Shown: positions 1 to 35,385 of the stretch, piece by piece
Position numbering within the stretch: position 1 is the stretch's first letter
Layout: each line of letters opens with the position of its first letter
Assembly (NCBI GenBank): GCA_026708965.1
Contig: JAPOTY010000026.1
Coordinates: forward strand, 1 to 36,243
Length of the DNA stretch: 36,243 nucleotides
Reading direction: 5' to 3'
Source of the DNA: Gammaproteobacteria bacterium
Lineage (GTDB): Bacteria > Pseudomonadota > Gammaproteobacteria > Steroidobacterales > Foliamicaceae
The notes under the pieces: generated by a model
What the model saw: only the letters and a program-made list of their open reading frames with translations
The model's database searches: none
What the model was told of the DNA's origin: nothing
Position numbers and translations under genes: made by a program

Positions 1-60
1 CCCTTCCCGGCCCAGGCAGGCGCCGGGAAGTACCCTGAGACCGGCCCCGCGCCACAGCCT

Positions 61-191
<131 letters not shown>

Positions 192-283
192 TGAGTCGTT
201 TCATGATTTCTCCTTTCAGGTTGGCCGCCTGTGAAAAGAAACAAGCCAGCTAGCAAGCTTGCATTGATGCGGCACCTACTCTA

Positions 284-2129: not shown

Positions 2130-4316
2130 CTAGAACGCCATGCGCATTCCCGCTTCGATTGTGCGTCCGGGCTGTGGCGCGAGGTCCTTGACGACGGACG
2201 TGTGCAGCCGCTGCTCGTCGTTGGTGAGATTGCGCCCGGCAAGGTACAAGTCCACCGTGGTGTTGGCGGGGCGCAAGCGCCAGGCGATACGGGCGCGGAG
2301 ATCGTTGTAGCCGTCCGTGGGCAACTCGAACTCGGCGATATCGTCCTGGTCGGCTGCCCGCACATAGTCCACGTTGGCCCGCAGGCGGTCGCTCGTGAAC
2401 TCGATCGATACGCCCACCCGGTCCGGCGGCATGAGCGGCAGATTGTCATTGGCAGAGATATCCAGCGACGGCGAGACCCTATCGTAGAAGATGCCCAGGT
2501 CGAGACGGCCTGCGCCCCACTCGGCCACGGTCAACCGGCCTTCCACCTCGAAGCCGGAGAAGGTGGCGTCGGCCTGGGCGTAACGGCGCACGTCGAAGCC
2601 GCTCCGCTCTTCATTCGTGGCCGCCTGGTAGATGAAATCCGCGAAGTCCGTATGGTAGAAGGTGCCGCTCACGGACCAGCGGTCGCCGCGGCCGGCGAGG
2701 GTGGCCGCTAGGTTGCGGGCCTTCTCGTGGCCGAGTTCCAGATCCCCGATTTCAAAGAAGCCCGTGCCGGGATGCGGGGCATCCGAGAACAGTTCCTCGC
2801 CCACCGGAGCCCGCGACGAGAAATCGGCCAGCAACGTGCCTTCCCAGCCTTGGCTAAGCGGCACGATCAGGCCCAGCGAAGCGCTGCCGCCGCTGAAGTC
2901 GCGGCTGCTGCCCCCTGCGGGATCGTGTTCGACCCGGTCGTAGCGCAGGCCCGCCTCCAGCCCCAGCCTGCCGAGAGAGCGCTCGCCAACCCAGAACAGG
3001 CCGGCGGACGACGTATCGACAGGGGGCGTGAAGGCTTCTTCGCCAGCCACGGAGAACTCGCGGTCGCCGAGCTGGATGCCGAAGGCGCCGCGCCACCCGC
3101 CGACCGGGCCGTGCGTCAGTTCCGCGCGCGCCTCCCATGCCTGGTTCGAGAAGGCCGTTCCCGCTTCGCCTGCTTCGTTCTCCACATGTTCGTAGTCGTT
3201 GATGCCGAGCCGGAAGCTTAGGCTCTCGAAGCCGCCGAACGGATCGGCCAAGGCAGCCTTGAGGTCAATGCGCGTCTGTTCGAGGTCAACGATGGGAGCG
3301 CTCTCGGCTTCATGCTCATGGTGCTCATCCTCCTCGTGGTGGTCCTCGTCCTCGTGGTGGCCCATCTCTTCGTGGTCGTGCTCGTCGTGCCCGTGCCCAT
3401 GATCGTGGCTGTGGCCCGGGATGCCGTAATCGGAATCGAGATTGCTGACCGAGAGGCCCACAAAGCCTCGGTCGCCCACCCAGGAGAGGCCGACGGAGCC
3501 GCCGCGGGTCTCAAGGCCGCTGCCCTGCAAGCGGCCTTGAGCTTCTTCCTCGTCGTGGTGCTCATCGTCGTGATGCTCGTCGTCATCGTGCTCGTCGTCG
3601 TGGTGCCCCTCCTCCTCATGGTGCTCGTCATCGTGATGCTCCTCTTCCTCTTGCGCCCGCAAGGCCGCGGACTCTGCGAACCCGGGGATGTCGTAGTCGT
3701 CCGCTTCGCGGGCAAAGGCATCGACGTGCCACGCGATGCTGCCGCTGCCGCCGCCTAGCCGGAAACTGCCGTTCCTGCCGTTGCCGTTGTTGTTGCCGCG
3801 CAGGTTGACGGCGCCGCGGATGCGCTCCGGCACTTCCTGCGGAATGCGGCCCGTTTGCACATCGACCACGCCGCCGATAGCGCCGGAACCGTAGAGCAGG
3901 GTAGCCGAGCCTTTCAGGATTTCCACGCGCTCCGCGACGAAGGGATCAACCGTGACCGCGTGGTCGCCGCTGCTGACGGAAACGTCGAGCGTATCGATGC
4001 GATCTTCCATGATCCGCACACGCGGGCCGCCCAGGCCGTGGATGACGGGGCGCCCGGCGCCCACGCCGTAGGAACTGTTGTGGATGCCCGGCTCATTGCC
4101 CACGGTTGCGCCGATATTGTCCACCGTCTTGCGCTCAAGCTCGTCGGCCTCCAGCACGTCGGCGGCCTGCGCCAGTCCTTCGCGCCCGAGCGGGTGCGCC
4201 AGTACGATGATCTCCTCGATGGTCCCCGCGTCTTCCGCTGCGGGCGCTTCTTCGGCGAGCGCGGCTGCCGCCAGCAACGGCGCTGCCACCAGTAGAGACA
4301 GTAGTTTGCCTTTCAT
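2130..4316 (-). CDS. znuD: TonB-dependent outer-membrane receptor, ZnuD-like, with His-rich loops
   Basis: Predicted 728-aa outer-membrane receptor for zinc or a zinc chelate. A signal peptide ends near residue 21 (AALA), followed by a TonB-box-like EEIIVLA and a plug domain containing RPVIHGLGGPRVRIMEDR and VERVEILKGSATLLYGSGAIGG. The remainder is a 22-strand-type barrel ending in the terminal Phe (MRMAF) expected of outer-membrane proteins. Two surface-loop segments, about residues 222-257 and 299-339, are extraordinarily rich in His, Asp and Glu and are probably metal-binding; such loops are known in ZnuD of Neisseria and relatives. The gene is divergent from a MerC-like/Zur pair, with a Zur-box-like palindrome in the shared promoter region, so zinc-repressed expression is likely. 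Zinc as the substrate is inferred from the loops and neighbours; nickel or copper is possible. Confidence 0.85.
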   Translation of the reverse strand: MKGKLLSLLVAAPLLAAAALAEEAPAAEDAGTIEEIIVLAHPLGREGLAQAADVLEADELERKTVDNIGATVGNEPGIHNSSYGVGAGRPVIHGLGGPRVRIMEDRIDTLDVSVSSGDHAVTVDPFVAERVEILKGSATLLYGSGAIGGVVDVQTGRIPQEVPERIRGAVNLRGNNNGNGRNGSFRLGGGSGSIAWHVDAFAREADDYDIPGFAESAALRAQEEEEHHDDEHHEEEGHHDDEHDDDEHHDDEHHDEEEAQGRLQGSGLETRGGSVGLSWVGDRGFVGLSVSNLDSDYGIPGHSHDHGHGHDEHDHEEMGHHEDEDHHEEDEHHEHEAESAPIVDLEQTRIDLKAALADPFGGFESLSFRLGINDYEHVENEAGEAGTAFSNQAWEARAELTHGPVGGWRGAFGIQLGDREFSVAGEEAFTPPVDTSSAGLFWVGERSLGRLGLEAGLRYDRVEHDPAGGSSRDFSGGSASLGLIVPLSQGWEGTLLADFSSRAPVGEELFSDAPHPGTGFFEIGDLELGHEKARNLAATLAGRGDRWSVSGTFYHTDFADFIYQAATNEERSGFDVRRYAQADATFSGFEVEGRLTVAEWGAGRLDLGIFYDRVSPSLDISANDNLPLMPPDRVGVSIEFTSDRLRANVDYVRAADQDDIAEFELPTDGYNDLRARIAWRLRPANTTVDLYLAGRNLTNDEQRLHTSVVKDLAPQPGRTIEAGMRMAF

Positions 4317-19437: not shown

Positions 19438-19789
19438 GGGGGCGACATGGCTTCGACGTGGGCTGTGAAATCCTTGGTGTGCATGCCGAGGCGCAGGGTT
19501 CCTCGTAAATCCGCCTGCAAAACCAATAGTTGCCAACGACGACAACTACGCTCTGGCGGCTTGACCGCCAGCGCTCCTGCCAGGATTTCCTGTGGCCAGG
19601 CCGGAGCGTCGCTTGCATAGGATCGCCCGTGGCATTGATCGGCGCGCACGGGTTAAGAGCTAGCTGATCAAAACGGTGCTTCCGTCCTGCCCGTCGGGGA
19701 ACCACCGCGACTAAGACGCGGCTAAGCATGTAGAGCGCCTCGGCCAGTAACGCTTGCGGACGCGGGTTCGATTCCCGCCGCCTCCACCA
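19438..19789 (+). ncRNA. ssrA: Transfer-messenger RNA (tmRNA)
   Basis: The 5' end GGGGGCGACATGGCTTCGAC and 3' end GGGTTCGATTCCCGCC plus GCCTCCACCA are the tmRNA signatures, and GGGGGC pairs with GCCTCC to form the acceptor stem (one G-U pair). The 3' CCA is encoded. The internal message reads GCC AAC GAC GAC AAC TAC GCT CTG GCG GCT TGA (bases from about 19528), giving the tag ANDDNYALAA. Together with SmpB (not in this window) it rescues stalled ribosomes. Its 3' end is the attachment site of the mobile element and remains intact after integration. Confidence 0.97.
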
Positions 19790-19791
19790 CC
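19775..19791. repeat. attL core (17-bp direct repeat)
   Basis: CCGCCGCCTCCACCACC spans the last acceptor-stem bases and CCA of tmRNA and is repeated exactly at 35369-35385. It is read as the left recombination core. Confidence 0.8.
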
Positions 19792-19835
19792 CACCCAATA
19801 TAATTCTTTGAAATATAAGGAATTATATTGGGTGG
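19791..19835. repeat. 16-bp inverted repeat next to attL
   Basis: CCACCCAATATAATTC (19791-19806) is perfectly inverted at 19820-19835 with a 13-nt A/T-rich spacer. It begins on the last base of the att core. It may be an integrase or accessory-factor binding region, or a tmRNA downstream hairpin; there is no U tract after it. Confidence 0.55.
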
Positions 19836-20027
19836 TGCTTGTGGTTATCAGCCAGCATATTATCCCTAATTGCGGCGGCACCCCGCAGACGCTCTCAGCT
19901 TCCGAAGCCTTCGGAAGGAGTCAAGCCAGCCATTTCGCGCAAAGCGCATAGCCTCCGAATGGCCGGTGTGTTTTGCCTTGTCCGCTAAAGTGCGCGGAAG
20001 TCCGTTTTTGTTCTTTGTGTTTACGTA

Positions 20028-20046
20028 AGCATAAATATGTTATGCT
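20028..20046. promoter_or_regulatory. Palindromic operator candidate upstream of the HTH gene
   Basis: AGCATAA-ATATG-TTATGCT has perfect 7-bp arms and lies in an AT-rich promoter-like patch (TATGTT/TATGCT -10-like boxes) 28 bases before the ATG at 20074. GAGAGGAGGGGAAG follows as ribosome site. It is a natural binding site for the HTH protein encoded next, which would be autoregulatory. Confidence 0.5.
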
Positions 20047-20073: not shown

Positions 20074-20526
20074 ATGCGAGACCTCGAAACCGACGGTTTG
20101 TCCGCGCCGCCGAGCGGGCCGAATGCCGATGTGGCTGCCGCCGCCGAGAGCGCGCGGCGGGCCGGCAGGGAGCTGGTGACGCCGAAGGCGCTGGCCGAGT
20201 TGCTCGGCCTCACCGACACCGCCATTCGCACGGCGCGGCTCAACGGGCGGGTCGAATCGCCGTTCGCGCTGGCGCTCACGGGCAAGAAGCTGCATCTGAT
20301 CACGGTGGCTAGCGCCATCAACTATTGGATCGGGGAGTCCCCCGGGGAGATCGAGCCGCATCTTGACGCAATGCGCCGAAAGGGGACGACGATGGTGCTG
20401 GGCGGCCAGTTCTACAATATCTTGTCGGATCGCCGGGTTGACGAGCCGGGCCTCCTGCGGCCTGGCCCCCGGTTTGGATCACGATTCCCGCAGGCGGGCG
20501 GACCGAAAGACAGGTGGCCGCAATGA
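20074..20526 (+). CDS. Helix-turn-helix-like protein, partner of the peptidase-ATPase
   Basis: 150 aa. The central part, about residues 33-86, contains TPKALAELLGLTDTAIRTARLNG, which has the spacing of a helix-turn-helix, then SPFALALTGKKLHLITVASAINYWIG, reminiscent of MerR/excisionase-type wings. The C-terminus is Pro/Gly/Arg-rich and probably disordered. No named family is recognised. A strong Shine-Dalgarno (GGAGGGG) precedes the ATG. Its stop overlaps the next ATG (ATGA at 20523-20526), so the two proteins should be made together, implying a joint function. It may be a DNA-binding adaptor that directs the ATPase to its DNA, analogous to accessory proteins of T4CPs, or simply a repressor. 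Confidence 0.65.
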   Translation: MRDLETDGLSAPPSGPNADVAAAAESARRAGRELVTPKALAELLGLTDTAIRTARLNGRVESPFALALTGKKLHLITVASAINYWIGESPGEIEPHLDAMRRKGTTMVLGGQFYNILSDRRVDEPGLLRPGPRFGSRFPQAGGPKDRWPQ

Positions 20527-22964
20527 CCGGGTTGGCTCAACGGCCCTTGCTTCGGCCCGCTGTCGCCCGCGTCCGCCTGAGCGGCCTGATCTGCGACGAT
20601 TTGGTGAACCGGTGCGTCGAGGAGGCGGACGCGCTGATCGAGGAATACTTCTACGAGCGCGTCGAGTTCTTGATCGACTCGCCGGGCGGCAGCGCCGCCA
20701 GCGTGTTCTATCTGCTTGAGGCGTTCGTCCGCTGGCAGGAGGCGGGGGTGCGGATCGACACCCGGGCCCTGACCAACGCGGAGAGCGCCGGCGCCTTGGC
20801 GTTGTCCTTGGGCGACACCAGACGTGCCGCCATGACTTCGCGGCTGCTTTACCACAGCGCGAGGGTTGCGCCGCAGGGCAATTCGTTCCTGACGGCATCA
20901 AATATGCGGAGCGAAGGGCGGCGGCTCGGCGAGCTCGACCGGACGATGCTTAGGCGGCTCGCCGAACGGGCCTGCCGGATCGACCGGGAAAGCTGGATGG
21001 AGCACTTGCTCAACCAGCCCGCCGGACTGGAGGAGGCCGGGTTCAATAAGCGGCTCATTTGCGAGCGCCTGTTCCAAGCGCCCCCGGCTTCCGCCGGACC
21101 GGACGAGATGGCGGCAGAGGCGCTGGCAGGTCGGCAGGCGGGGGAAACCGAGGCCGGACAGCGCGCGCAAGCCGCGCCGGAGGCGGCGGAAACGCCCGCA
21201 GGGGCGGTTTCCGCCGGTTTTCGCGGTGATCCCGATGCAACCCTGAACAAGCGCATGGCCGACGTGCTGATGTCCGAGGCGGACGGGGATTCCGCCCGGG
21301 CGCGCTTCTTCAGTATCTACAAGAACCTGTTCGCCTTGGACGTGCCGGTCAGCGCGGCGACGGCGAAGTCGCTCGGGCTTATCGATGCGGTCGGAGCGGA
21401 CGACCCCAACCCGCTGCGGGCGCTGCGCCATGCCCGGGAACCTGCCCAAAAGCCGGGGCTGCCGGATAGCAGCCGCCTGGACATCCCCGAGTGGGGCGCG
21501 ATCCGCCCGGGCGGTGCGCCCGTCGAGACACTGGCGCGCCACACTTTGATCCTGGGCGAGACTGGATCGGGCAAGACGGTCTCCGGGGTGCTGCCGATCG
21601 TTCGCGCCGCCCTCAGGCGGATGGGCCGGGATTGCGCGGGCCGCGCGGTCGGTTGCTTGCTCATCATCGATCCAAAGCGCGACATCGCGCCTGCGCTCGA
21701 CGGCGCGGTCGGGGCAGACATCCGCCGCCTCGCCATCAGCGGCGGTCAGGAGGGCGAGCGCGTCCGCCTCGACCTGATGGCCGGGACCCCCATCGACCTG
21801 TCGGTGCCGGACCTGCGGCAGGCTGCCCGGGGCATCCTGGGCAAAGCGGCCTCGATTGATCCGAACAACCCGATGAAAACCTTGTCGGCGGAAGGAGCAG
21901 CCACGGGGAACGATAGGTTCTGGACTCAACAAGGCACGGAGTTAGGGCTGGTGTTCCTCGAAATGGCCCTCATCCTCCTGAACCTGTTCGGCGACTATAA
22001 GGAAGCCGCCAAGTGGCATGAGCGGATCGACGGTCGGTTGCGGAAATTCATCGAGCACCGCGATGCCGGCAAGAACGTGCTGTTTCTGGCCAACCACTTG
22101 CTGAGCGGGTTCAGCGGCTTGCGCTCGTCGGACAATTTGCCCTTATTGGGCAGCCTGGCCCGGTCGCTGGCCGCCCCGGAGCAGCTCGACAACCGGCGGG
22201 CCGTCTCGCAGATCAAGGCGTGGAGGGCGAGGACCGAGCGGCTGGAAAGCTACATGCAGGAGGAGCGGCTTTACACCAGCATCGTCGCGTCCTCCGACGG
22301 GTGCTTCATGGAATACTGCGCGCCGGACGCTGCGGAGTCGCTCTATTTCGGGTGCGAGCCGATCATTGCGCGGCAGCCCTCCGAATGCCTCGACCTCGGC
22401 GCGCTCGTGTCGCCGGACATCCCCCGCCCGCAGGTGCTGCTGATCCAGCCGGACATCCAGCGGGCCGAAGGGGCGCTGCTCGCCCGGGCGTTCAAGGCGG
22501 CGTTCTTCCAAGCGGTGCTGCGCGATCCCGCCAGGAGCGCGCCGGATGCCGCGGGCATCCCGCTGGTCGGCTACGTGGCCGACGAGTTCCACCGCTTCAT
22601 CACCGCCGACCTGCGCCACGGGGAGCAGTCGTTTCTCGACACCTGCCGGTCGTTCGGGGCTTTCTGCGTCCTTTCGTGCCAGTCGGTATCGAGTCTCGAG
22701 CACGCGCTGCGCGAGATCGGTGCCGGCGTGTCAACGGAATCGTCCATCCGCGTTTTGCTCGCCAACACCGGCACCAAGCTGTTCTTCAGATCGACGGATC
22801 AAGAAACCCAAAGGTTGCTGCGCGATGTCGTGCCGACGGGCCAGTGGGGATCGCCGCTTGAGGCCCGGCCTGTCACCACCCTGCGGACCGGCGAGTGCTA
22901 CGCGGTGCTTACCGGCGGGCAGATCGCTAGGCGGCAACTCGGCTGGGTGGACTTGCGGAAATAG
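20523..22964 (+). CDS. Fusion of ClpP-like serine peptidase with VirD4/TraD/HerA-type ATPase
   Basis: 813 aa. Residues about 15-150 have a ClpP/SDH-type serine peptidase fold: VEFLIDSPGGSAAS supplies the oxyanion-hole GG, NAESAGALALSLGDTRRA carries the presumed nucleophile Ser88, and RLLYHSAR the presumed His111, at near-ClpP spacing. AKSLGLIDAVG near residues 281-291 resembles the end of the ClpP fold, separated by an Ala/Glu-rich insert. Residues about 320-813 form an additional-strand P-loop motor of the coupling-protein/HerA group: Walker A GETGSGKT (345-352), LLIIDPKRD, Walker B YVADEFHRF (684-692), the CQS sensor, and LANTGTKLFFRSTDQET as in TraD/VirD4. No transmembrane helices are visible, unlike most T4CPs. 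The ATG at 20523 is favoured over GTG 20514 by the ATGA overlap. Function is unknown: a peptidase-linked DNA pump or a defence ATPase is inferred. Confidence 0.8.
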   Translation: MTGLAQRPLLRPAVARVRLSGLICDDLVNRCVEEADALIEEYFYERVEFLIDSPGGSAASVFYLLEAFVRWQEAGVRIDTRALTNAESAGALALSLGDTRRAAMTSRLLYHSARVAPQGNSFLTASNMRSEGRRLGELDRTMLRRLAERACRIDRESWMEHLLNQPAGLEEAGFNKRLICERLFQAPPASAGPDEMAAEALAGRQAGETEAGQRAQAAPEAAETPAGAVSAGFRGDPDATLNKRMADVLMSEADGDSARARFFSIYKNLFALDVPVSAATAKSLGLIDAVGADDPNPLRALRHAREPAQKPGLPDSSRLDIPEWGAIRPGGAPVETLARHTLILGETGSGKTVSGVLPIVRAALRRMGRDCAGRAVGCLLIIDPKRDIAPALDGAVGADIRRLAISGGQEGERVRLDLMAGTPIDLSVPDLRQAARGILGKAASIDPNNPMKTLSAEGAATGNDRFWTQQGTELGLVFLEMALILLNLFGDYKEAAKWHERIDGRLRKFIEHRDAGKNVLFLANHLLSGFSGLRSSDNLPLLGSLARSLAAPEQLDNRRAVSQIKAWRARTERLESYMQEERLYTSIVASSDGCFMEYCAPDAAESLYFGCEPIIARQPSECLDLGALVSPDIPRPQVLLIQPDIQRAEGALLARAFKAAFFQAVLRDPARSAPDAAGIPLVGYVADEFHRFITADLRHGEQSFLDTCRSFGAFCVLSCQSVSSLEHALREIGAGVSTESSIRVLLANTGTKLFFRSTDQETQRLLRDVVPTGQWGSPLEARPVTTLRTGECYAVLTGGQIARRQLGWVDLRK

Positions 22965-23463: not shown

Positions 23464-23694
23464 ATGCAGTTAGAAACAGATTATGAAGCTGAACGCGCCG
23501 CCGTTGTAGCCAAAGGTGAAGCCCTACACGAAAAGTCTGCCTTGGAATTGAAGCGGCGCGGCGCAGGTGGGCAGGCTTACAGGGGCAGCATATTTGTGGT
23601 CTCTTGGGCTGTTTGGATTCTGGTGGTGCTAGGGGTGCTGCAAACGTGGCTGTTATTCCTGATAGGGGGCTCTCCGGGAGTATCCGCCTTTTAG
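23464..23694 (+). CDS. Hypothetical single-pass membrane protein
   Basis: 76 aa with a charged N-terminal half (YEAERAAVVAKGEALHEKSALELKRR) and one hydrophobic helix, FVVSWAVWILVVLGVLQTWL, near the C-terminus. GAGGGGGGAC just upstream is a strong ribosome site, which argues that it is translated. No family recognised. It opens a run of small membrane or exported proteins that ends at 26175. Confidence 0.55.
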   Translation: MQLETDYEAERAAVVAKGEALHEKSALELKRRGAGGQAYRGSIFVVSWAVWILVVLGVLQTWLLFLIGGSPGVSAF

Positions 23695-23704
23695 GGGAAA
23701 AACT

Positions 23705-23854
23705 ATGAAAGCATTGGGAATCATCGCGGTCGTATTGGCAGTGATTGGGTTCTGCGTTCCAGTCGCTGGGTCTTTCCGCCTTATTCCATACATCATCTTG
23801 CTGCTGCTGACCATCATCGGGCTGATCGTGGGCAGAAAAAAGGGTTTGGCATAG
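23705..23854 (+). CDS. Small membrane protein, internally shortened paralogue of the 24637 gene
   Basis: The 49-aa frame starts MKALGIIAVVLAVIGFCVPVAG and ends IIGLIVGRKKGLA. Both ends are nearly identical to the 92-aa protein at 24637-24915, including the upstream AGGGGAAAAACT ribosome-site region, but 43 internal codons (129 nt) are missing. The frame is preserved across the deletion. The result is two short helices and a basic tail, so it may be functional or a decaying copy. Confidence 0.5.
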   Translation: MKALGIIAVVLAVIGFCVPVAGSFRLIPYIILLLLTIIGLIVGRKKGLA

Positions 23855-23889: not shown

Positions 23890-24582
23890 ATGAACAACAA
23901 GCTTCTCGCCAATGGCCTGACGCGGGTCAATGCGTTGCTTGCCGAAACGAAAAGGATACTGAAAGCGTTTCTTGTATCGAGCGCGCTATTGCTCGCCGGC
24001 GCCATAGGCGGCGCTGCCGCGACCTTGTTGACCGTGCCTATGCTGGTCGGCTGCGGCCCGTCGAAGGAGGAGCAGCTACAGATCGACACGTACACCGCTG
24101 CGGCGGCTGCGGAGGGTTCCACCCCCCTGCTCGTGGCGGTGGGACGCGGCGACGCTGCGGCGGTGGAGGCGCTGTTGGAATCTGGCGCGTCCGTGAACGC
24201 GACGGGGGAGGACGGCGCGACGCCGCTGGGGGCGGCGGCGCGGCTTGGACGGGCGGAGAGCGCGAAGGCATTGATCGACGCGGGCGCGGACGTGGACGCG
24301 ATGGGCGAGGACGGCGAGACGGCGCTGATGAAGGCGGCGGAGTACGGCCATGCGGAGATTGCGAAGCTGCTGGTCGACGCGGGCGCGGACGTGAACGCGA
24401 AGGACGGGGGCGGCTCCACGCCGCTGATTCGGGCGGCTGATCGCGGCCATGCGGAGATTGCGAAGCTGCTGATCGACGCGGGCGCGGCCGTGAACGCGAA
24501 GGACGGATCCGGCTTGACGGCGCTTCGTCGTGCGCGTGGTGATGGAATTAGGGCGATGCTGCGGGAAGCTGGCGCGAAATGA
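23890..24582 (+). CDS. Ankyrin-repeat protein, membrane-anchored or lipoprotein
   Basis: 230 aa. A hydrophobic stretch (KAFLVSSALLLAGAIGGAAATLL) is followed by LVGCGPS, a lipobox-like site, placing the rest in the envelope or outside. About four ankyrin repeats follow, with the consensus forms DGETALMKAAEYGHAEIAKLLVDAGADVNAKDG. Ankyrin repeats bind other proteins; in symbionts and pathogens they are often host- or partner-directed. The repeats are close in DNA sequence to those of the next ankyrin gene, indicating recent duplication. The partner is unknown. Confidence 0.8.
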   Translation: MNNKLLANGLTRVNALLAETKRILKAFLVSSALLLAGAIGGAAATLLTVPMLVGCGPSKEEQLQIDTYTAAAAAEGSTPLLVAVGRGDAAAVEALLESGASVNATGEDGATPLGAAARLGRAESAKALIDAGADVDAMGEDGETALMKAAEYGHAEIAKLLVDAGADVNAKDGGGSTPLIRAADRGHAEIAKLLIDAGAAVNAKDGSGLTALRRARGDGIRAMLREAGAK

Positions 24583-24636
24583 CCGGCGGCGTAGGCATTG
24601 CTCCAACCACAACAACACACAACAAGGGGAAAAACT

Positions 24637-24915
24637 ATGAAAGCATTGGGAATCATCGCGGTCGTACTGGCAGTGATAGGGTTCTTCGTTCCAGTCGCTG
24701 GGCCTTACCTTGTTTGCGTCGCGCTCATATTTGCGAGCATTGCCGCTTTTCTTGGCGAGAAGCCATTGACAATCGCGACGCTCGTCTTCGGCATCGTCAA
24801 TATCTTTTTGAGTCCGACTTTAGTGCTCAACCCGTTCCTGCTTACTCCATACATCATCTTGCTGCTGCTGACCATCATCGGGCTGATCGTGGGCAGAAAA
24901 AAGGGATTGGCGTAG
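24637..24915 (+). CDS. Hypothetical small membrane protein
   Basis: 92 aa, almost entirely hydrophobic: IIAVVLAVIGFFVPVAGPYL, CVALIFASIAAFLG, and YIILLLLTIIGLIVG, ending in the basic tail RKKGLA. The ATG at 24637 follows AAGGGGA; the longer reading to 24598 adds residues with no support. It is the full-length parent of the 49-aa copy at 23705 and lies between two ankyrin lipoprotein genes, so an alternating pair (small membrane protein plus ankyrin protein) seems to have been duplicated. Confidence 0.6.
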   Translation: MKALGIIAVVLAVIGFFVPVAGPYLVCVALIFASIAAFLGEKPLTIATLVFGIVNIFLSPTLVLNPFLLTPYIILLLLTIIGLIVGRKKGLA

Positions 24916-24973
24916 TGAGCTCCGGCGGCAAACGGCTGCCCGCAGAACCACTTTGAATACCTTGGAGGGAAGC

Positions 24974-25792
24974 ATGAACACCACCAGAATCAGAGCCGCG
25001 CCGCTAGCCATAGCTCTGCTGGCCTTGCCGCTGCTGGCGGGATGCGGGGGTATGACCGAAGAGGAGAGGATGCTTGCAGAGGCTTACACCACGAAGGTGG
25101 TTGGCACTGGCAAAACGCCGCTGGAACTTGCGTTAGAGGACCAGAACGCGGCTGCTGTGCGGGCGTTGGCGGCGGCGGGCGTGGACTTGGACGCGAAGAA
25201 CGAGGACGGCGAGACGGCGCTGATGAAGGCGGCGGAGTACGGCCATGCGGAGATTGCGAAGCTGCTGGTCGACGCGGGCGCGGACGCGGACGCGGAGACC
25301 GAGCACGGCGATACGCCGCTGATTCAGGCGGCGGAGTACGGCCATGCGGAGATCGTGGAGATGCTGATTGACGACGCGGGCGCGGACGTGAACGCGAAGG
25401 GCAACGCGGGCTTGACGGCGCTGATGTTCGCGGCAGGAAATGGCCATGCGGAGATAGTGGAGATGCTGATTGACGCGGGCGCGGACGCGGACGCGGAGAC
25501 CGAGCACGGCGATACGCCGCTGATTCAGGCGGCGGAGTACGGCCATGCGGAGATCGTGGAGATGCTGATTGACGACGCGGGCGCGGACGTGAACGCGAAG
25601 GGCAACGCGGGCTTGACGGCGCTGATGTTCGCGGCAGGAAATGGCCATGCGGAGATAGTGGAGATGCTGATTGACGCGGGCGCGGACATGGACGCGAGGA
25701 GCGAGGACGGCGAGACGGCGCTGATGTTCGCGGCACAAAATGGCCATGCGGAGATAGTGGAGATGCTCCGGGAAGCGGGCGCAAGGGAATAG
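24974..25792 (+). CDS. Ankyrin-repeat lipoprotein
   Basis: 272 aa. A clear lipoprotein signal (APLAIALLALPLLAGC) precedes a short linker and about seven ankyrin repeats, many with the helix pair ALMFAAGNGHAEIVEMLIDAGAD. GGAGGGA lies correctly before the ATG at 24974. Residues about 100-233 are two copies of a 67-residue double repeat that are identical at the DNA level, showing very recent expansion. A lipid-anchored ankyrin array would display a protein-binding surface in the periplasm or at the cell surface. The ligand is unknown. Confidence 0.85.
   Translation: MNTTRIRAAPLAIALLALPLLAGCGGMTEEERMLAEAYTTKVVGTGKTPLELALEDQNAAAVRALAAAGVDLDAKNEDGETALMKAAEYGHAEIAKLLVDAGADADAETEHGDTPLIQAAEYGHAEIVEMLIDDAGADVNAKGNAGLTALMFAAGNGHAEIVEMLIDAGADADAETEHGDTPLIQAAEYGHAEIVEMLIDDAGADVNAKGNAGLTALMFAAGNGHAEIVEMLIDAGADMDARSEDGETALMFAAQNGHAEIVEMLREAGARE
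25271..25672 (+). repeat. Perfect tandem duplication, 2 x 201 bp, inside the ankyrin gene
   Basis: Bases 25271-25471 and 25472-25672 are identical by direct reading, and the next 15 bases repeat again before divergence. Each unit encodes 67 residues (two ankyrin repeats), so copy-number change keeps the frame. Confidence 0.9.
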
Positions 25793-30739: not shown

Positions 30740-33004
30740 CTATTCCGATACGCTCCGATGCTCTTTTTTCAAAACCCGGTAATAGATGCGTCCCTCATTG
30801 CGATTAGAAGAAATCCGTCTCATCGCGGTTCGGATGTTGGTTTTTCCTATGCCGGTCGCTTCCTCCACTGCCTTTATAAAATCTTCCGTTTTCATGGTTT
30901 TGCTATCAGCTGCGTTTAGTATCTCCACCCCCGCTTTCATAGCATCGCTCACCGAATCGATTTTCTCTTTCATTCGCTGCTTCGCTTCGCGCTCGGTCGC
31001 CGCTTCTGGCGCTTTCCCTGCGAACTCATCGTAGGTCTCGAAAATCTGATTCGGCGTGAGATCGGCGATCATCTGCTTGTTGACGCGCACATAGGCATAG
31101 GTGGACTCGTTCAATTCGGTGTTGCCCTGTATCGGCAGAGCCTTTTCGCTAAATTTCGCAATCGGCAACTCGTAGTGCCATCCGCCCTCCTTATTGGCGA
31201 TGTTGACGGCGATGCGTGTGATGCAGCCCACGACTTTCGCATTGGTCGAAAGATTGCGTTCGGAAATCTTGTATCGCTTGCACGGAGAGACGCGCCCGCC
31301 CTTACCGCCTTTTCCGTAGGCGATTTGCGCGGGCAGCCCTTCGACTCCAAGCACAACTCGCGGGTAGGCCGTCCAAGCCTGACTTCCTAGAACCTCATCC
31401 TCCAACGCGGATTTGTTATTGCGCCGTCCACCCTGTCCCTTTCGCGTGTGGTGAATGCCGAGTGTGGCGATGCCGAGTTCGTGGATAGGTTCGAATGCGC
31501 GTTCTAGTCCGTGCCGCACATTTTTCGCATCGTTGGGGTTGCCCGCCACCACATCGATGGCTGGATCGACGACGACCAAGCGGATGGGTGGATGAGTGTC
31601 CTTTTCCCGTTCGAGCTGCGATATGAAATGCTCGAAAGGAGAGGGGGTTGAGTTGCTGTTCCCATCGGTTTCCGGTTTGGCCGTCCAATCGAAGGAATGG
31701 GGTTTCCTCGCGCCCTCAAGCGGCCTGATTAAGGCGGTATCCGCGCCCATCATCATCAGTCTGGGGAGGATCGTATCTTCGTAGCCGTCCTCTCCGCTGT
31801 AGTAGATGACGCGCCCCGGTCCGTCCTTCGTTTTCTTTTCCGTGAAAGGTTCGATGCCTTTCGTCACGCACGCCGCGATATACATGGCGACGGTGGATTT
31901 CCCGATTTTCTGTCGACCGGCCAAGAGAGTCAATTTGTAGGGCAGCCATCCTTCCGTGAGCCATTGGATGGCTTCGGGTGATTTCTCCGCTTGGAAATCA
32001 AACTGCGCGGCGGGTTTCTCCTCCCACTTGCTTTTGCGCGATTCTTCGTCCCTATGTTCTTTCAGAATCGCCTCGTAGTTGGCACCGCCTTCCTTCGCTA
32101 TCTGCACGATAGTTCCGAAGCTCTTGCCGCCGCCGGTGGAAAAGGTTTGCCACTTGCGAGCGCACAAGCCCTGCTCATAATTACCGCCGTTCTTGCTCCA
32201 TTCGTCCCACAACTCCAACGCCTGCTCGCTCCCGTCAAACTTATCGTGCAGCCCGAATCCGACATCCAGCCAGCCCTCATCGTGTTTGATGTTCGGGTTG
32301 ATGTGCGCGAGTAGCGCACGGGCGACATCGATCTGCCCGGACTTCGTGCCTGTCCGCTTTTTCGCGGTCGGTGTTGCCTTTCGTCGCTTGTAGATTTGCG
32401 AAAGGTCGGTATCGCCCGATACGCCGCCATTCACCGCTGCGGCCACCCGCTCGGGGTCGTGGAGAATCACATAGCCGCTACCGCCGCGAATTTCACCGCT
32501 GCCTTCGGGCAGTTTCCAATCGCCGTTAGGCTGCTCTCCCTCTTTCGCAAACCATAGGTGGTATCCGCCCTCGCGCCGTGTTTCGTGGCAGCACACCGGC
32601 TCGCCGAGTTTCTCTTTCAGAGCGGCTACCGCTTCGAGCCCGCCGTAATCCACATCGACGACGGCCATGCCGAGGGAGTTCGGTCGAACGCCTATGAGCG
32701 CCTTATCGTCGCTCTGCAAATGGTCTATCGCGTCGGCGGCGGAGAGGTATCGCGTCTTCCAGCCAAACCCTTTTCGCGGGCTCTTATCGGCTTCGCATGG
32801 GATGAGCCAAGCGTTTTTATCGGCGAGGTCGCGAATGGCTTGTTGGAAGGCGGGCGTGTTGCGTCCGGGAAACTTCCCGGAATCCGAGGCATCGGCCTTT
32901 CCGTTTGGTTTTGGTGTAGAATGCCCTTTGTCGTATGGGCGTTCTACACGAGCGTGTTTAGAGCCGGAGGGGGCGACCCCTCCGGCTTTTTCTTTGCTGG
33001 CCAC
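30740..33004 (-). CDS. Primase-polymerase/RepA-type replicative ATPase fusion
   Basis: 754 aa. The N-terminal PrimPol domain has GMAVVDVDYGGLEAV (catalytic acidic pair near residue 116) and ETRREGGYHLWF. A PriCT-2-like primase C-domain follows (DEGWLDVGFGLHDKFDGS...WDEWSKNGGNY). The ATPase, from about residue 345, carries Walker A LLAGRQKIGKSTVAMYIA, EDGYEDTILPRL and Walker B RLVVVDPAID, then GIHHTRKGQGGRRN, as in RepA/AAA_25 helicases of RSF1010-like plasmids. A C-terminal winged-helix-like stretch (IGKTNIRTAMRRISSN) may bind DNA. The only usable start is GTG 33004, six bases after the AlpA gene's stop. It is probably the initiator of the element, with iterons just past its 3' end. Confidence 0.82.
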   Translation of the reverse strand: MASKEKAGGVAPSGSKHARVERPYDKGHSTPKPNGKADASDSGKFPGRNTPAFQQAIRDLADKNAWLIPCEADKSPRKGFGWKTRYLSAADAIDHLQSDDKALIGVRPNSLGMAVVDVDYGGLEAVAALKEKLGEPVCCHETRREGGYHLWFAKEGEQPNGDWKLPEGSGEIRGGSGYVILHDPERVAAAVNGGVSGDTDLSQIYKRRKATPTAKKRTGTKSGQIDVARALLAHINPNIKHDEGWLDVGFGLHDKFDGSEQALELWDEWSKNGGNYEQGLCARKWQTFSTGGGKSFGTIVQIAKEGGANYEAILKEHRDEESRKSKWEEKPAAQFDFQAEKSPEAIQWLTEGWLPYKLTLLAGRQKIGKSTVAMYIAACVTKGIEPFTEKKTKDGPGRVIYYSGEDGYEDTILPRLMMMGADTALIRPLEGARKPHSFDWTAKPETDGNSNSTPSPFEHFISQLEREKDTHPPIRLVVVDPAIDVVAGNPNDAKNVRHGLERAFEPIHELGIATLGIHHTRKGQGGRRNNKSALEDEVLGSQAWTAYPRVVLGVEGLPAQIAYGKGGKGGRVSPCKRYKISERNLSTNAKVVGCITRIAVNIANKEGGWHYELPIAKFSEKALPIQGNTELNESTYAYVRVNKQMIADLTPNQIFETYDEFAGKAPEAATEREAKQRMKEKIDSVSDAMKAGVEILNAADSKTMKTEDFIKAVEEATGIGKTNIRTAMRRISSNRNEGRIYYRVLKKEHRSVSE
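32962..32995 (+). terminator. Rho-independent terminator antisense to the start of the PrimPol gene
   Basis: AGCCGGAGGGG-GCGA-CCCCTCCGGCT (32962-32987) is followed by TTTTCTTT on the plus strand: a textbook intrinsic terminator, but inside codons 6-15 of the minus-strand replication gene. A second hairpin, GTAGAA(T)GCCC / GGGC(G)TTCTAC, lies just before it at about 32916-32946. Together they resemble a short antisense RNA with its terminator. Confidence 0.55.
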
Positions 33005-33010
33005 GGCGGA

Positions 33011-33325
33011 TCACTTGCCTTCGGCGGCTTTCGCCGCTTCCGATTGATCCGCAGCAGCGCCGTTCACCGCTTTCGCTGCATCTATCGCCGCTCGCTCCCG
33101 TGCCTCGGCAGATGCCACGCTGAGCGGGCGCGAGTCGATCCATCGGTCGATCTCTTCGCGTTTCCAAGCGACGGCGCGGTTGCTAAGTTGGATGCTGCGC
33201 GGGAATGTCGGGTCTTCCTTCACCAGTTTGTAGATGCCGGTACGCCCGAAGTTCAGGTAAGCCATCAGGTCCCTGACTCTCAAGAGAGCGGGTTGGATGT
33301 GTGTTAATGATTGTAGGTTTGCCAC
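33011..33325 (-). CDS. AlpA-family transcriptional regulator
   Basis: 104 aa. LLRVRDLMAYLNFGRTGIYKLVKEDPTFPRSIQLSNRAVAWKREEIDRWIDSR is the AlpA/excisionase winged-helix (shown here as contiguous family matches around residues 15-67). AlpA proteins activate integrase genes or act as excisionases in P4-like satellites. The C-terminal tail is Ala/Glu-rich. It starts at GTG 33325, whose ribosome site (AGGAG) is inside a palindrome, and runs into the PrimPol gene 6 bases after its stop, so the two are cotranscribed. Confidence 0.85.
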   Translation of the reverse strand: MANLQSLTHIQPALLRVRDLMAYLNFGRTGIYKLVKEDPTFPRSIQLSNRAVAWKREEIDRWIDSRPLSVASAEARERAAIDAAKAVNGAAADQSEAAKAAEGK

Positions 33326-33535: not shown

Positions 33536-33994
33536 TTATGGGAGATAAGTCTTCTCGAACTCATTGCGTTCGGCCTCCGCTTCGCGGAGTTTTTTTTGGG
33601 CGAGATTTCGCTTCGCACTGCCGGGCACGGTCTTCGCGACTTCAGATCGTGCGCGTTCCTCATGGCGGATGAGCATTTCTAGGGGGTCTTCGCCAACTTC
33701 TCCCCACTCTAATTCTTCCAGCTCTTCCTCCGCTTTGCGGAGTTCTTCTTGGATTTGATCGTGGCGCTGGGTGCCGGGCTTTACGGTCTTTAATTTTTCG
33801 CGCAACTCCCCGACATGAACATCAAGCAGATCCAACCCCTCAAGTTGTAGTTTGTCTATTTCGCTCTCTCGTTGAGCCCATGCTTCCAGTGACTCTCCGG
33901 GTTCGCGATCCGTGTAGCGGGCGGGATGCTTTGCCGCCTTAGCAAGTTGCTGGCGGCGTTGGGATTGTTGGGATCGTCGCTGCGATCGGTTCAT
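33536..33994 (-). CDS. Hypothetical coiled-coil protein coupled to the integrase
   Basis: 152 aa, basic N-terminus (MNRSQRRSQQSQRRQQLAKAAKH) and long heptad-like helices rich in Glu, Lys and Leu (VGELREKLKTVKPGTQRHDQIQEELRKAEEELEELEW). No catalytic motif or family is recognised. ATG 33994 has AGGAGA eight bases upstream and overlaps the integrase stop (ATGA), so it is cotranslated with the integrase. It could be a recombination accessory factor or a structural protein. The 210 bases between it and alpA hold no other gene. Confidence 0.6.
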   Translation of the reverse strand: MNRSQRRSQQSQRRQQLAKAAKHPARYTDREPGESLEAWAQRESEIDKLQLEGLDLLDVHVGELREKLKTVKPGTQRHDQIQEELRKAEEELEELEWGEVGEDPLEMLIRHEERARSEVAKTVPGSAKRNLAQKKLREAEAERNEFEKTYLP

Positions 33995-35190
33995 GGCATT
34001 TCTCCTGTAACGAACATGCTCCAATGATCCATCAGCTTGCGCCGCTTCTCAAGCAGGTCTGAGCGGGCGTAGGCGCGTTCGGCGGCGTTGGGGATGGTGT
34101 GGGCCAGCGCCGCTTCCATGACGGCGTGGGACGTGTCGGTTTGCTCGGCCGCCCAATCGCGGAAGGATGAGCGGAAGCCGTGCGGCACCGCTTGGATGCC
34201 GAGTTCGCGGCACAGCTTGCTTTTGGTCGAGTTGGACATGGCCTGCCCTGAGACGTTCGGGAACACCCACGCGCACCCGGCGTGTTGAGCCGTCATCGGC
34301 TCCTCGCTGATCGACCGGGCTTGTTTCAGCGCGGCCAGCGCCGCATCAGCCAGCGGGACGCGGTGTTCGATCTTGGCCTTCATCCGGTGGGCCGGGACGG
34401 TCCACATGCGCTCGAACAGGTCGATCTCCTTCCAAGTCATCAGGCGGACTTCGCCGCTTCTCGCCGCCGTTAGGATCAGGAACTCGAACGCCAGCTTGGT
34501 GCCGATCCATGCGTTGGAGCGGCGAATCTTCGCCAGCGCTCCGGGAGCCTCGGCGTAGGGCAGGGCGGCGAAGTGGCGCTTCGCCTGCCCCGTGCCTTTG
34601 GGCAGCGCCTCCAAGACGGCGGTTCCCGCCGGATCGTGCGCGATATAGCCTTTGGCCACGCACCAGCGCATGATGATGCTGATTCGCTGGCGCAACCGCA
34701 TGGCGGTTTCTCGCTTCTTCGCCCAGATCGGCTCCACGGCCTCTAGAACGTCCGCTGTGGCGATTTTGTCCACCGGCATGGCCCCGATGACCGGATAAGC
34801 GTAGGTCTCAAGGGAGGCGCGCCAGATGGCCGCTGATCCGCCGCCGTTTTTCCAAGCGGGCTCGCGTAGCCGGATGACCTTCTCGGCGGCGGCGGCGAAG
34901 TCCGGCGTCGAGCGCTTGCGTCGCAGGGCGCGGGGATCGCCGCCGCGCCACACGATCCGGCGGTTTTCCAGCGCCTGCTTGCGCGCTTCGGCGAGCGTGA
35001 CCACCGGATAGCCGCCCAAGCCGAGGGTGCGGCGCTTCCCGTAAATGGTCATGCGCTGAATCCAGTGCTTGGAGCCGCCGGGATGGACGCGAAGGTATAG
35101 TCCTCCCCCGTCGCCGCGCTGTTCTTCGCTGCGGGTTCGCCCCGAATGCTGGAGGTTTCGGCACTGCGCGTCGGTGAGTTTATTAGCCAT
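33991..35190 (-). CDS. int: P4-type tyrosine integrase
   Basis: 399 aa. The DUF4102-like N-terminal arm-binding domain (KLTDAQCRNL...GDGGGLYLRVHPGGSKHW, GLGGYPVVTLAEAR) and SAM-like core precede the catalytic domain. Active-site residues visible are Arg244 (TAARSGEVRLMTW), a Lys in HRMKAKIEHRVPL, His337 and Arg340 (HGFRSSFRDWA), His364 (LAHTIPN) and the nucleophile Tyr374 (ERAYARSD). All are intact, so the enzyme should be active. It lies inside the right att core and points inward. Integrases of this family often target tRNA or tmRNA 3' ends, in agreement with the direct repeats here. Confidence 0.93.
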   Translation of the reverse strand: MANKLTDAQCRNLQHSGRTRSEEQRGDGGGLYLRVHPGGSKHWIQRMTIYGKRRTLGLGGYPVVTLAEARKQALENRRIVWRGGDPRALRRKRSTPDFAAAAEKVIRLREPAWKNGGGSAAIWRASLETYAYPVIGAMPVDKIATADVLEAVEPIWAKKRETAMRLRQRISIIMRWCVAKGYIAHDPAGTAVLEALPKGTGQAKRHFAALPYAEAPGALAKIRRSNAWIGTKLAFEFLILTAARSGEVRLMTWKEIDLFERMWTVPAHRMKAKIEHRVPLADAALAALKQARSISEEPMTAQHAGCAWVFPNVSGQAMSNSTKSKLCRELGIQAVPHGFRSSFRDWAAEQTDTSHAVMEAALAHTIPNAAERAYARSDLLEKRRKLMDHWSMFVTGEMP

Positions 35191-35368: not shown

Positions 35369-35385
35369 CCGCCGCCTCCACCACC
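35369..35385. repeat. attR core (17-bp direct repeat)
   Basis: Exact copy of the tmRNA 3'-end segment at 19775-19791, lying about 180 bp upstream of the integrase start codon. Confidence 0.8.

Follow-up and report, generated by a model that had tools for sequence, protein, structure and literature searches.

The fusion gene and its island

The window, by which we mean the whole stretch of 36,243 nucleotides analyzed here, contains one gene that joins an N-terminal serine peptidase of the ClpP fold to a C-terminal motor of the VirD4/TraD type (Table 1). The open frame extends from 20514 or 20523 to 22964 on the forward strand, with a GTG codon at 20514 as a possible alternative start, and its codon-position G+C content (0.67/0.50/0.85) is the pattern of a real gene. 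The motifs that the first-pass annotation had listed for the 813-aa frame were all found, namely SPGG (53-56), Ser88 in NAESAGA, His111 in LLYHSAR and AKSLGLID (281-288) in the peptidase half, and GETGSGKT (345-352), VADEFH (685-690), SCQS (718-721) and TKLFFRSTDQET (751-762) in the motor half. Its division of the frame into two domains is likewise upheld by profile and fold matches. We found no description of a ClpP-coupling-protein fusion in the open-access literature, including the available portions of PMC5512222, PMC12839542 and PMC7824862.

Table 1. Positions of the fusion gene, its domains and the surrounding island features in the window
Feature	Position	Strand	Remarks
tmRNA gene (ssrA)	19438..19789	+	
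17-nt direct repeat, left copy	19775..19791	+	At tmRNA 3' end; candidate attL
HTH-like protein, 150 aa	20074..20526	+	ATGA overlap with fusion gene
Fusion gene (ClpP-like peptidase and VirD4-type motor), 813 aa	20523..22964	+	ATG start
ClpP-like domain, residues ~1-289	20523..21389	+	Ser88, His111, Asp273
VirD4/TraD-type motor, residues ~314-813	21462..22961	+	Walker A 345-352, Walker B 683-688, Gln720, Arg756
Two ankyrin-repeat genes	23890..25792	+	23890-24582 and 24953-25792; island cargo
Prim-Pol / PriCT_2 / AAA_25 replication protein	30740..33004	-	
AlpA-type regulator	33011..33325	-	
Tyrosine integrase, P4 type	33991..35190	-	Arm-DNA-bind_3, Phage_int_M, Phage_integrase
17-nt direct repeat, right copy	35369..35385	+	~180 bp from integrase start; candidate attR

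The evidence supports a location of the gene in a tmRNA-side integrative island of the P4 type. The earlier placement in an integrative element was borne out by the P4-type integrase, the AlpA and Prim-Pol genes, and the direct repeat at the tmRNA gene, a 17-nt match (2 of 356 random probes matched equally well). The DNA 3' of ssrA is variable both here and in sister genomes, and synteny with the latter picks up again at ~39.1 kb of contig C20; the right end of the island is a candidate.

An HTH-like ORF of 150 aa overlapping the fusion by ATGA is present as annotated. The palindromic operator ascribed to it had been given no position, and the best candidate upstream, at 20014-20035, is an inverted repeat of low grade (85%). 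The overlap would fit a regulatory protease of the element: in response to DNA damage or copy number it would degrade a repressor, such as the neighboring HTH protein, and thereby bring about excision, in the way that ImmA acts on a repressor to trigger ICEBs1 excision. However, relatives of the HTH gene were found neither at the other 10 family loci nor among the remaining 395 genomes searched in the order, and we consider this explanation improbable. The proposed coupling to an HTH partner is thus specific to this locus, and the HTH gene was rejected as a part of the family.

The peptidase and motor halves

The first-pass annotation had offered the lack of a ClpP fold in the N-terminal half as a test of its reading; the fold was found there by profile, AlphaFold2 model and Foldseek comparison. 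The fusion passes the CLP_protease Pfam cut-off narrowly (21.6 versus 20.2 bits, E=2.2e-4), the family profile matches solved ClpP chains in the PDB at E=1.1e-6, and the AlphaFold2 model of the N-terminal 300 aa (pLDDT 70, pTM 0.70) matches ClpP crystal structures at E=4.7e-8 with an rmsd of 2.2. Ser88, His111 and Asp273, the last of which was absent from the earlier annotation, line up with the catalytic triad of the host ClpP. The serine and histidine are kept in all 11 intact copies of the family, while the third position is Asp in six copies and Glu in five, the latter being all five copies of genome G578.

The family shares with ClpP (S14) of ClpXP and ClpAP the fold, the Ser-His-Asp order and the end motif. 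In contrast to ClpP, the peptidase is fused to a motor, which by profile and fold is not of the AAA+ class, and the distance from His to Asp is 109-278 residues in the 11 copies as compared with 49 in the host ClpP. None of these copies has a compact handle between His and Asp: the handle carries 60-229 additional residues in the family, and in the window the extra segment (residues ~155-254) follows the handle helix and comes before the helix that leads to Asp273. In ordinary ClpP the handle joins two rings, and the extra residues therefore suggest that the motor carries one peptidase ring and that no free double ring is formed. The fusion is not the housekeeping ClpP of its host, since an ordinary ClpP (284 bits) is encoded elsewhere in the genome.

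The motor is the weaker half of the assignment: the profile matches that place it in the VirD4 class are marginal, and the structural model is of low confidence. The fusion matches TrwB_AAD_bind with 26.1 bits against a cut-off of 20.5 (E=4.8e-6); in the whole-genome search this profile fell on the fusion in two of six genomes and was below the cut-off in the window, and the L014 copy stays just short of it (20.2 versus 20.5 bits). The TraD match is also below its cut-off (E=4.3e-4). The P-loop region of the family profile matched DEAD-box RNA helicases among PDB chains (DDX28, E=4.5e-4), and no coupling protein appeared in the 60 of 113 matches listed. Walker A and B sequences of the VirD4/TraD nucleotide-binding domain are present, although Pfam matches are marginal or absent in other members. 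All six aligned rows agree in Walker A up to its Lys, in the Asp-Glu of Walker B and in the Gln motif. Confidence in the full-length model is poor (pLDDT 51); among PDB folds it is closest to the VirD4-type ATPase Cagbeta (E=9e-4), with ClpPs next. In this low-confidence model residues 431-606 are mostly helical, at the place of the all-alpha domain, and the stretch linking motor to peptidase (residues ~290-330) is itself of low confidence and probably flexible.

Compared with VirD4, TrwB, TraD and Cagbeta, the family has in common the Walker A, Walker B and Gln motifs, the TrwB_AAD_bind match and the top fold match, and differs in carrying a peptidase in place of the membrane domain; in addition, the neighbors scanned showed no recognizable genes for type IV secretion. 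Most type IV coupling proteins (T4CPs) have an N-terminal membrane domain, according to the accessible part of PMC7431656. Here the ClpP domain takes up the first 300 aa, the membrane-anchor position, and no N-terminal hydrophobic segment above 1.6 was found within the first 120 hydropathy windows of any of the 11 copies. Membrane contact may still be made through the helical region of the motor, because hydropathy windows just above 1.6 occur there in three of the 11 copies (the window, L014 and L015).

Among PADLOC profiles, compared with the fusion and HTH proteins, the MADS component mad8 matched over the motor (E=5.4e-6), a likeness limited by a weak score of 24 bits, and HerA matched at E=0.0041. 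No paper naming mad8 was found in the open-access literature on MADS.

Distribution and genomic context of the family

Altogether we identified 11 intact fused copies in six genomes, none with an internal stop, and four of these genomes have records titled 'chromosome'. An artefact of assembly or annotation joining two genes, which the first-pass annotation had also named as a test, is therefore refuted and retains a negligible probability, even though metagenome-assembled genomes stand behind all nine loci with record titles shown. The ClpP / VirD4-type fusion is a real, conserved family in some uncultured gammaproteobacteria, where it lies within mobile DNA, at several loci in integrative or mobilizable islands.

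The fusion was found only in the window's own genome among 185 genomes of the class, 398 of the phylum and nine of the family, and in two of 396 genomes of the order; with the motor alone as query, G216 itself was the only hit among the 22 genomes of its family. The class search scored up to five initial candidates from each genome, the order and phylum searches up to two, and both family searches all of them, so weak relatives may have been missed in the first three. Further members may also exist because the scan of genome_contigs relied on two short peptide patterns. Pairwise dN/dS values are not uniformly low: they were 0.20 in the ClpP core and 0.53 in the motor for L008 and L013, 0.27 and 0.44 for L008 and L034, and, on very few changes, 1.12 in the ClpP core for L013 and L034. 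The G578 copies are too similar among themselves for such a judgement.

No relatives were found in plasmids, in 50,697 phage records, or in viral_contigs by pattern-based scans. This absence from viral records argues against a satellite or phage packaging part, that is, a head-maturation protease of the ClpP type fused to a packaging motor. Such a role could draw on PHROG hits that are weak both for the fusion (head-maturation proteases, E=0.11-0.16) and for the HTH protein (terminase small subunits, E=0.036), and on the P4-like replication and integration genes. However, in the viral fold comparison a conjugal transfer protein comes first (E=8.7e-4), and the best 50 of 192 matches, some of which are nameless, include none named as a packaging ATPase. 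We reject packaging machinery as very improbable.

The neighbors of the fusion vary between lineages, and genomic context therefore does not settle its role. MoxR, DUF2201-VWA and ParB genes accompany all seven copies of G578 and G579, and partial matches to the window-type integrase occur at four more loci (L009, L013, L016 and L035, the last flanking L008). Relaxase matches lie near four of the 11 copies: MobA/MobL, which was searched in all six genomes, at a distance of ~3-6 kb in the case of two copies in G578 and one in G579, and Mob_Pre, detectable only where ORFs were scanned, near the G582 copy. Together with the VirD4-type motor, these relaxases would suit a mobilisation coupling protein that passes relaxase-DNA to a resident type IV secretion channel while the peptidase trims or recycles transfer proteins. 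We regard this as unlikely. No relaxase was found among the island proteins scanned in the window, and the window's genome gave no MobA/MobL match. Moreover, the N-terminus lacks a hydrophobic segment in every copy, and in the part of PMC7431656 available to us TrwB, MobB and PcfC lose function without the membrane domain, with TcpA as a partial exception that retains a lower level. Since deletion of this domain mostly ends transfer, the 'soluble coupling protein' suggested in the first-pass annotation is weakened.

Other neighbors would fit a role in defence. The G216 copy adjoins AbiEi/AbiEii, PP2C and NYN genes, and next to the L015 copy is a restriction-type helicase protein in which ResIII and Mrr domains were detected, along with weak matches to methylases; G216 also holds a decayed second copy of the fusion, which suggests gene turnover. 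With the mad8 and HerA matches and the precedent of HerA-effector complexes in the available text of PMC11291478, these observations are consistent with an anti-phage or anti-plasmid effector, whose motor would sense or run along foreign DNA and switch on a peptidase cutting host or invader proteins, abortively or directly, like HerA-nuclease systems. On the other side, seven of the 11 copies lie instead in the MoxR-VWA-ParB element backbone and the HTH partner is not conserved; we consider a defence role possible but rather doubtful.

A proposed protease driven by a VirD4-type motor

We tentatively favor, at somewhat less than an even chance, a soluble energy-dependent protease in which the VirD4-type motor feeds nucleoprotein substrates to the tethered peptidase, for conflict between elements or their own handling. 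The peptidase and motor activities are themselves predicted, and the stacked rings and DNA-gated proteolysis suggested in the first-pass annotation are putative. In the proposed scheme, a soluble VirD4-type ATPase, with the ClpP-like peptidase replacing the coupling-protein membrane domain, would form a ring and engage a protein or protein-DNA complex, such as a relaxase, a replication or partition protein, or a phage protein on DNA. It would then pull and unfold the bound substrate and hand it to the attached peptidase, so that an FtsK-HerA/VirD4-class pump would take the place of an AAA+ unfoldase. The likeliest use would be conflict or housekeeping on mobile DNA, either removing the nucleoproteins of rival elements or clearing or processing relaxase and partition complexes that belong to the element itself. 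That this amounts to a new class of protease, a soluble VirD4-class pump threading DNA-bound proteins, or DNA with a covalently attached relaxase, from nucleoprotein complexes into a tethered ClpP-like ring by which mobile elements dismantle rival or own nucleoproteins, is a speculative possibility.

Among the known systems close to this arrangement, FtsH and Lon are single-chain energy-dependent proteases; they resemble the fusion in carrying motor and protease on one polypeptide and differ in both motor class and protease fold. To our knowledge, all energy-dependent proteases known use AAA+ motors, and motors of the FtsK-HerA/VirD4 group serve in DNA movement and effector export. HerA-Sir2 is one HerA-effector complex. 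In HerA-DUF4297, as presented in the accessible portion of PMC11291478, a ring motor of the FtsK-HerA superfamily likewise works with an enzyme, and HerA hexamers are topped by stacked effector layers, an established architecture in defence. The difference is that the effector there is encoded by a separate gene next to herA, whereas here the peptidase is in the same chain and the defence role is putative.

Ordinary ClpP forms a heptamer ring and T4CPs are hexamers, so joining them 1:1 creates a symmetry mismatch for which the model has to account, a clean structural puzzle. The conserved union of the two in one chain raises the question of whether pumps of the VirD4 type are able to power proteolysis. 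In the part of PMC5826034 available to us, unfolding is required for transport of conjugative substrates, the T4CP is one of the conjugative system's three ATPases, and the responsible unfoldase is unknown. The fusion offers a soluble system for testing what unfolds type IV secretion substrates.

A ClpP-like peptidase joined to a putative VirD4-type motor

The 813-aa frame is a coding gene, as judged by its G+C by codon position (0.67/0.50/0.85). Within its product, two Pfam domains lie just above their curated cut-offs, CLP_protease (residues 17-149) and TrwB_AAD_bind (residues 703-768). The first-pass annotation had described it as a fusion of a ClpP-like serine peptidase and a VirD4/TraD/HerA-type DNA motor. 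For the N-terminal half, the proposed ClpP fold was recovered both by a profile built from six family members, which matched PDB ClpP chains (E=1.1e-6), and by structural modelling of the N-terminal 300 residues with 8 alignment rows. The best of five models (pLDDT 70, pTM 0.70; the remaining four had pLDDT 50-58) matched ClpP crystal structures in Foldseek at E=4.7e-8 and rmsd 2.2, and among 875 matches at E<=0.001, the 50 listed were all ClpP.

Ser88 and His111, previously proposed as catalytic, indeed align onto the catalytic Ser and His of the host's own ClpP, an ordinary protein whose gene lies on another contig (C29; 284 bits), and both positions are kept in all 11 intact copies of the family. 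Asp273 aligns onto the catalytic Asp; six of the 11 copies have Asp at this third position, and all five from genome G578 have Glu. The His-to-Asp spacing is 109-278 residues in the 11 copies versus 49 in the host ClpP. Since the 60-229 extra residues sit at the site of ClpP ring-ring contact, the fusion proteins probably depart from the usual double-ring arrangement. Estimates of dN/dS (NG86) for the ClpP core and motor were 0.20 and 0.53 between loci L008 and L013 (core of 106 codons), and 0.27 and 0.44 between L008 and L034; these pairs indicate a constrained peptidase core, whereas the L013/L034 pair does not (1.12 and 0.53, with a ClpP-core dS of only 0.04). The copies within G578 are too similar for such a judgement.

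The assignment of the motor to the VirD4 type is less certain than that of the ClpP half. The full-length protein gave a poor model (pLDDT 51). Among PDB structures, the Helicobacter pylori Cagbeta ATPase, a VirD4-type coupling protein, matched this model best (E=9e-4), ahead of ClpPs and SppA; among viral folds, the best match was to a conjugal transfer protein (E=8.7e-4). The fusion protein also matched mad8 in PADLOC (E=5.4e-6) and TraD in NCBIfam (E=4.3e-4, far under the cut-off). Against the VirD4 assignment, the family sequence profile matched DEAD-box RNA helicases of the PDB in the P-loop region (E=4.5e-4), with no coupling proteins among the best 60 of its 113 PDB matches, and the other family members match TrwB_AAD_bind marginally or not at all.

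Distribution and genomic context of the family

The same fusion recurs in other genomes. Among 396 genomes of the order, one besides the window's own, G216, had a relative, at 38-41% identity in two pieces of one frame, and a scan of genome contigs found nine loci in five records, including the G216 locus (L014). A profile search of six genomes gave 11 intact copies (one each in the window, G580, G581 and G582, two in G579 and five in G578). In G580, which has the same locus as G216, one decayed C-terminal copy accompanies the intact one; it adjoins AbiE genes, and ~2 kb separate it from the intact copy, which is on the opposite strand. The family is rare within the sampled genomes, being present in 1 of 185 genomes of the class sample, 1 of 398 of the phylum sample and 1 of 9 of the family-rank sample, each time the window's own genome. 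No fusion relatives were found in plasmid, phage and viral collections. One chromosome record, OY282433.1, carries five copies of a long element (L008-L012) with ~10 kb shared, mostly 95-98% alike, and OY282353.1 carries relatives at 82-90%.

The 150-aa HTH-like frame that precedes the fusion gene had been regarded as coupled to it and as a possible constant neighbor. The two frames overlap by ATGA in the window, but the HTH gene had no match at any of the other 10 family loci, so that constant association does not hold; a search of 395 further genomes of the order gave no match either. All seven copies of G578 and G579 have genes for a MoxR-type AAA protein, a DUF2201-VWA protein and ParB beside the fusion gene, and five of the seven a SLOG/DprA-like gene. 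At L008, the one copy followed further out, genes for a strawberry-notch helicase, RadC and a DUF7146-Toprim protein come next, and a second copy, L037, shares the last part of this stretch. Relaxase matches lie near 4 of the 11 copies, namely MobA/MobL at a distance of ~3-6 kb for two of the G578 copies and one of the G579 copies, and Mob_Pre within the fetched flank in G582; the search across all genomes covered MobA/MobL only, and an additional MobA/MobL match in G578 is distant from every fusion copy. The G216 fusion is surrounded by AbiEi, AbiEii, PP2C, NYN and phosphoesterase genes; near the fusion in G581 are genes for an SRAP protein and for a restriction-type helicase with ResIII and Mrr domains. 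Partial matches to the window-type integrase occur at L009, L013, L016 and L035, the last flanking L008.

The tmRNA-side region of the window

Coordinates of the features in the window contig (C20) and related genomes
Feature	Position	Strand	Remarks
C and G tracts	33-198		very long, as inverted repeat at contig start
45-nt repeated units	3301-3654		12-18 nt apart, within 728-aa minus-strand gene
17-nt direct repeat, left copy	19775
Hairpin	19785-19837		long, near-perfect; starts inside tmRNA 3' end, at island's left edge; arms: outer 9 nt 100%, inner 19 nt 95%
tmRNA gene, 3' end	19789
Fusion open frame	20523-22964	+	813 aa
Nearly identical stretches	23693-23854, 24625-24915		by first ankyrin gene; 85- and 81-nt blocks, 94%; ~125 nt between the two blocks of the second stretch
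Ankyrin-repeat genes, first set	23890-25792		99-nt units
17-nt direct repeat, right copy	35369		~180 bp from start of P4-type integrase gene
Ankyrin-repeat genes, second set	35860-37302		99-nt units; orientation opposite to first set
Decayed motor-only copy	L005 6714-7676 (G216 C4, ~326.7-327.6 kb)		stop inside
tmRNA-part matches, sister G232	C1 2492931, 2494295
tmRNA-part matches, sister G262	C61 12510, 31899

A match as long as the 17-nt direct repeat was reached by 2 of 356 random probes. Its right copy falls inside a 34-codon open frame, with ankyrin genes on both sides, and the integrase gene is adjoined by genes for AlpA and a Prim-Pol/PriCT_2/AAA_25 protein. The tmRNA locus was fetched from four sister genomes, one of which has a contig that ends too early; in the three comparable ones, only ~4-6 kb separate the tmRNA from the gene block that starts at ~39.1 kb in the window contig. 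Thus variable DNA of differing length lies behind the tmRNA gene, and the right end of the candidate island may be at 35385 or nearer 39 kb. In two of seven sister genomes searched (G232 and G262), paired tmRNA-part matches lie 1.4 kb and 19 kb apart, respectively, as if an insertion had duplicated part of the tmRNA. The two ankyrin gene sets, which flank the integrase gene, are 70-76% alike in longer matches, and rearrangement between them could occur. Far upstream, the 728-aa gene looks like a putative TonB receptor, judged by eye, and its repeats are perhaps a His/Asp/Glu-rich, metal-binding stretch.

Proposed role of the fusion

A simple coupling role is unlikely for the fusion, since most coupling proteins stripped of their membrane domain no longer work in conjugation, one partial exception aside (PMC7431656). 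Type IV secretion substrates require unfolding by an unfoldase as yet unknown, and the coupling protein is among the three ATPases that are candidates for this task (PMC5826034). In a defence complex already described, effector layers are stacked on HerA rings (PMC11291478). From these three lines of literature we infer that a soluble motor would pass protein or nucleoprotein substrates to the tethered peptidase ring. The target may be nucleoprotein of a rival, in which case the fusion would serve conflict or defence, or nucleoprotein of the element itself, in which case it would serve transfer or maintenance; the defence-like and backbone-like neighbors point in different directions, and the context therefore favors neither. 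Each half by itself is nothing new, and titles and abstract beginnings of the open-access papers found yielded no description of their union. The fusion is a variant of the known motor-plus-enzyme scheme.
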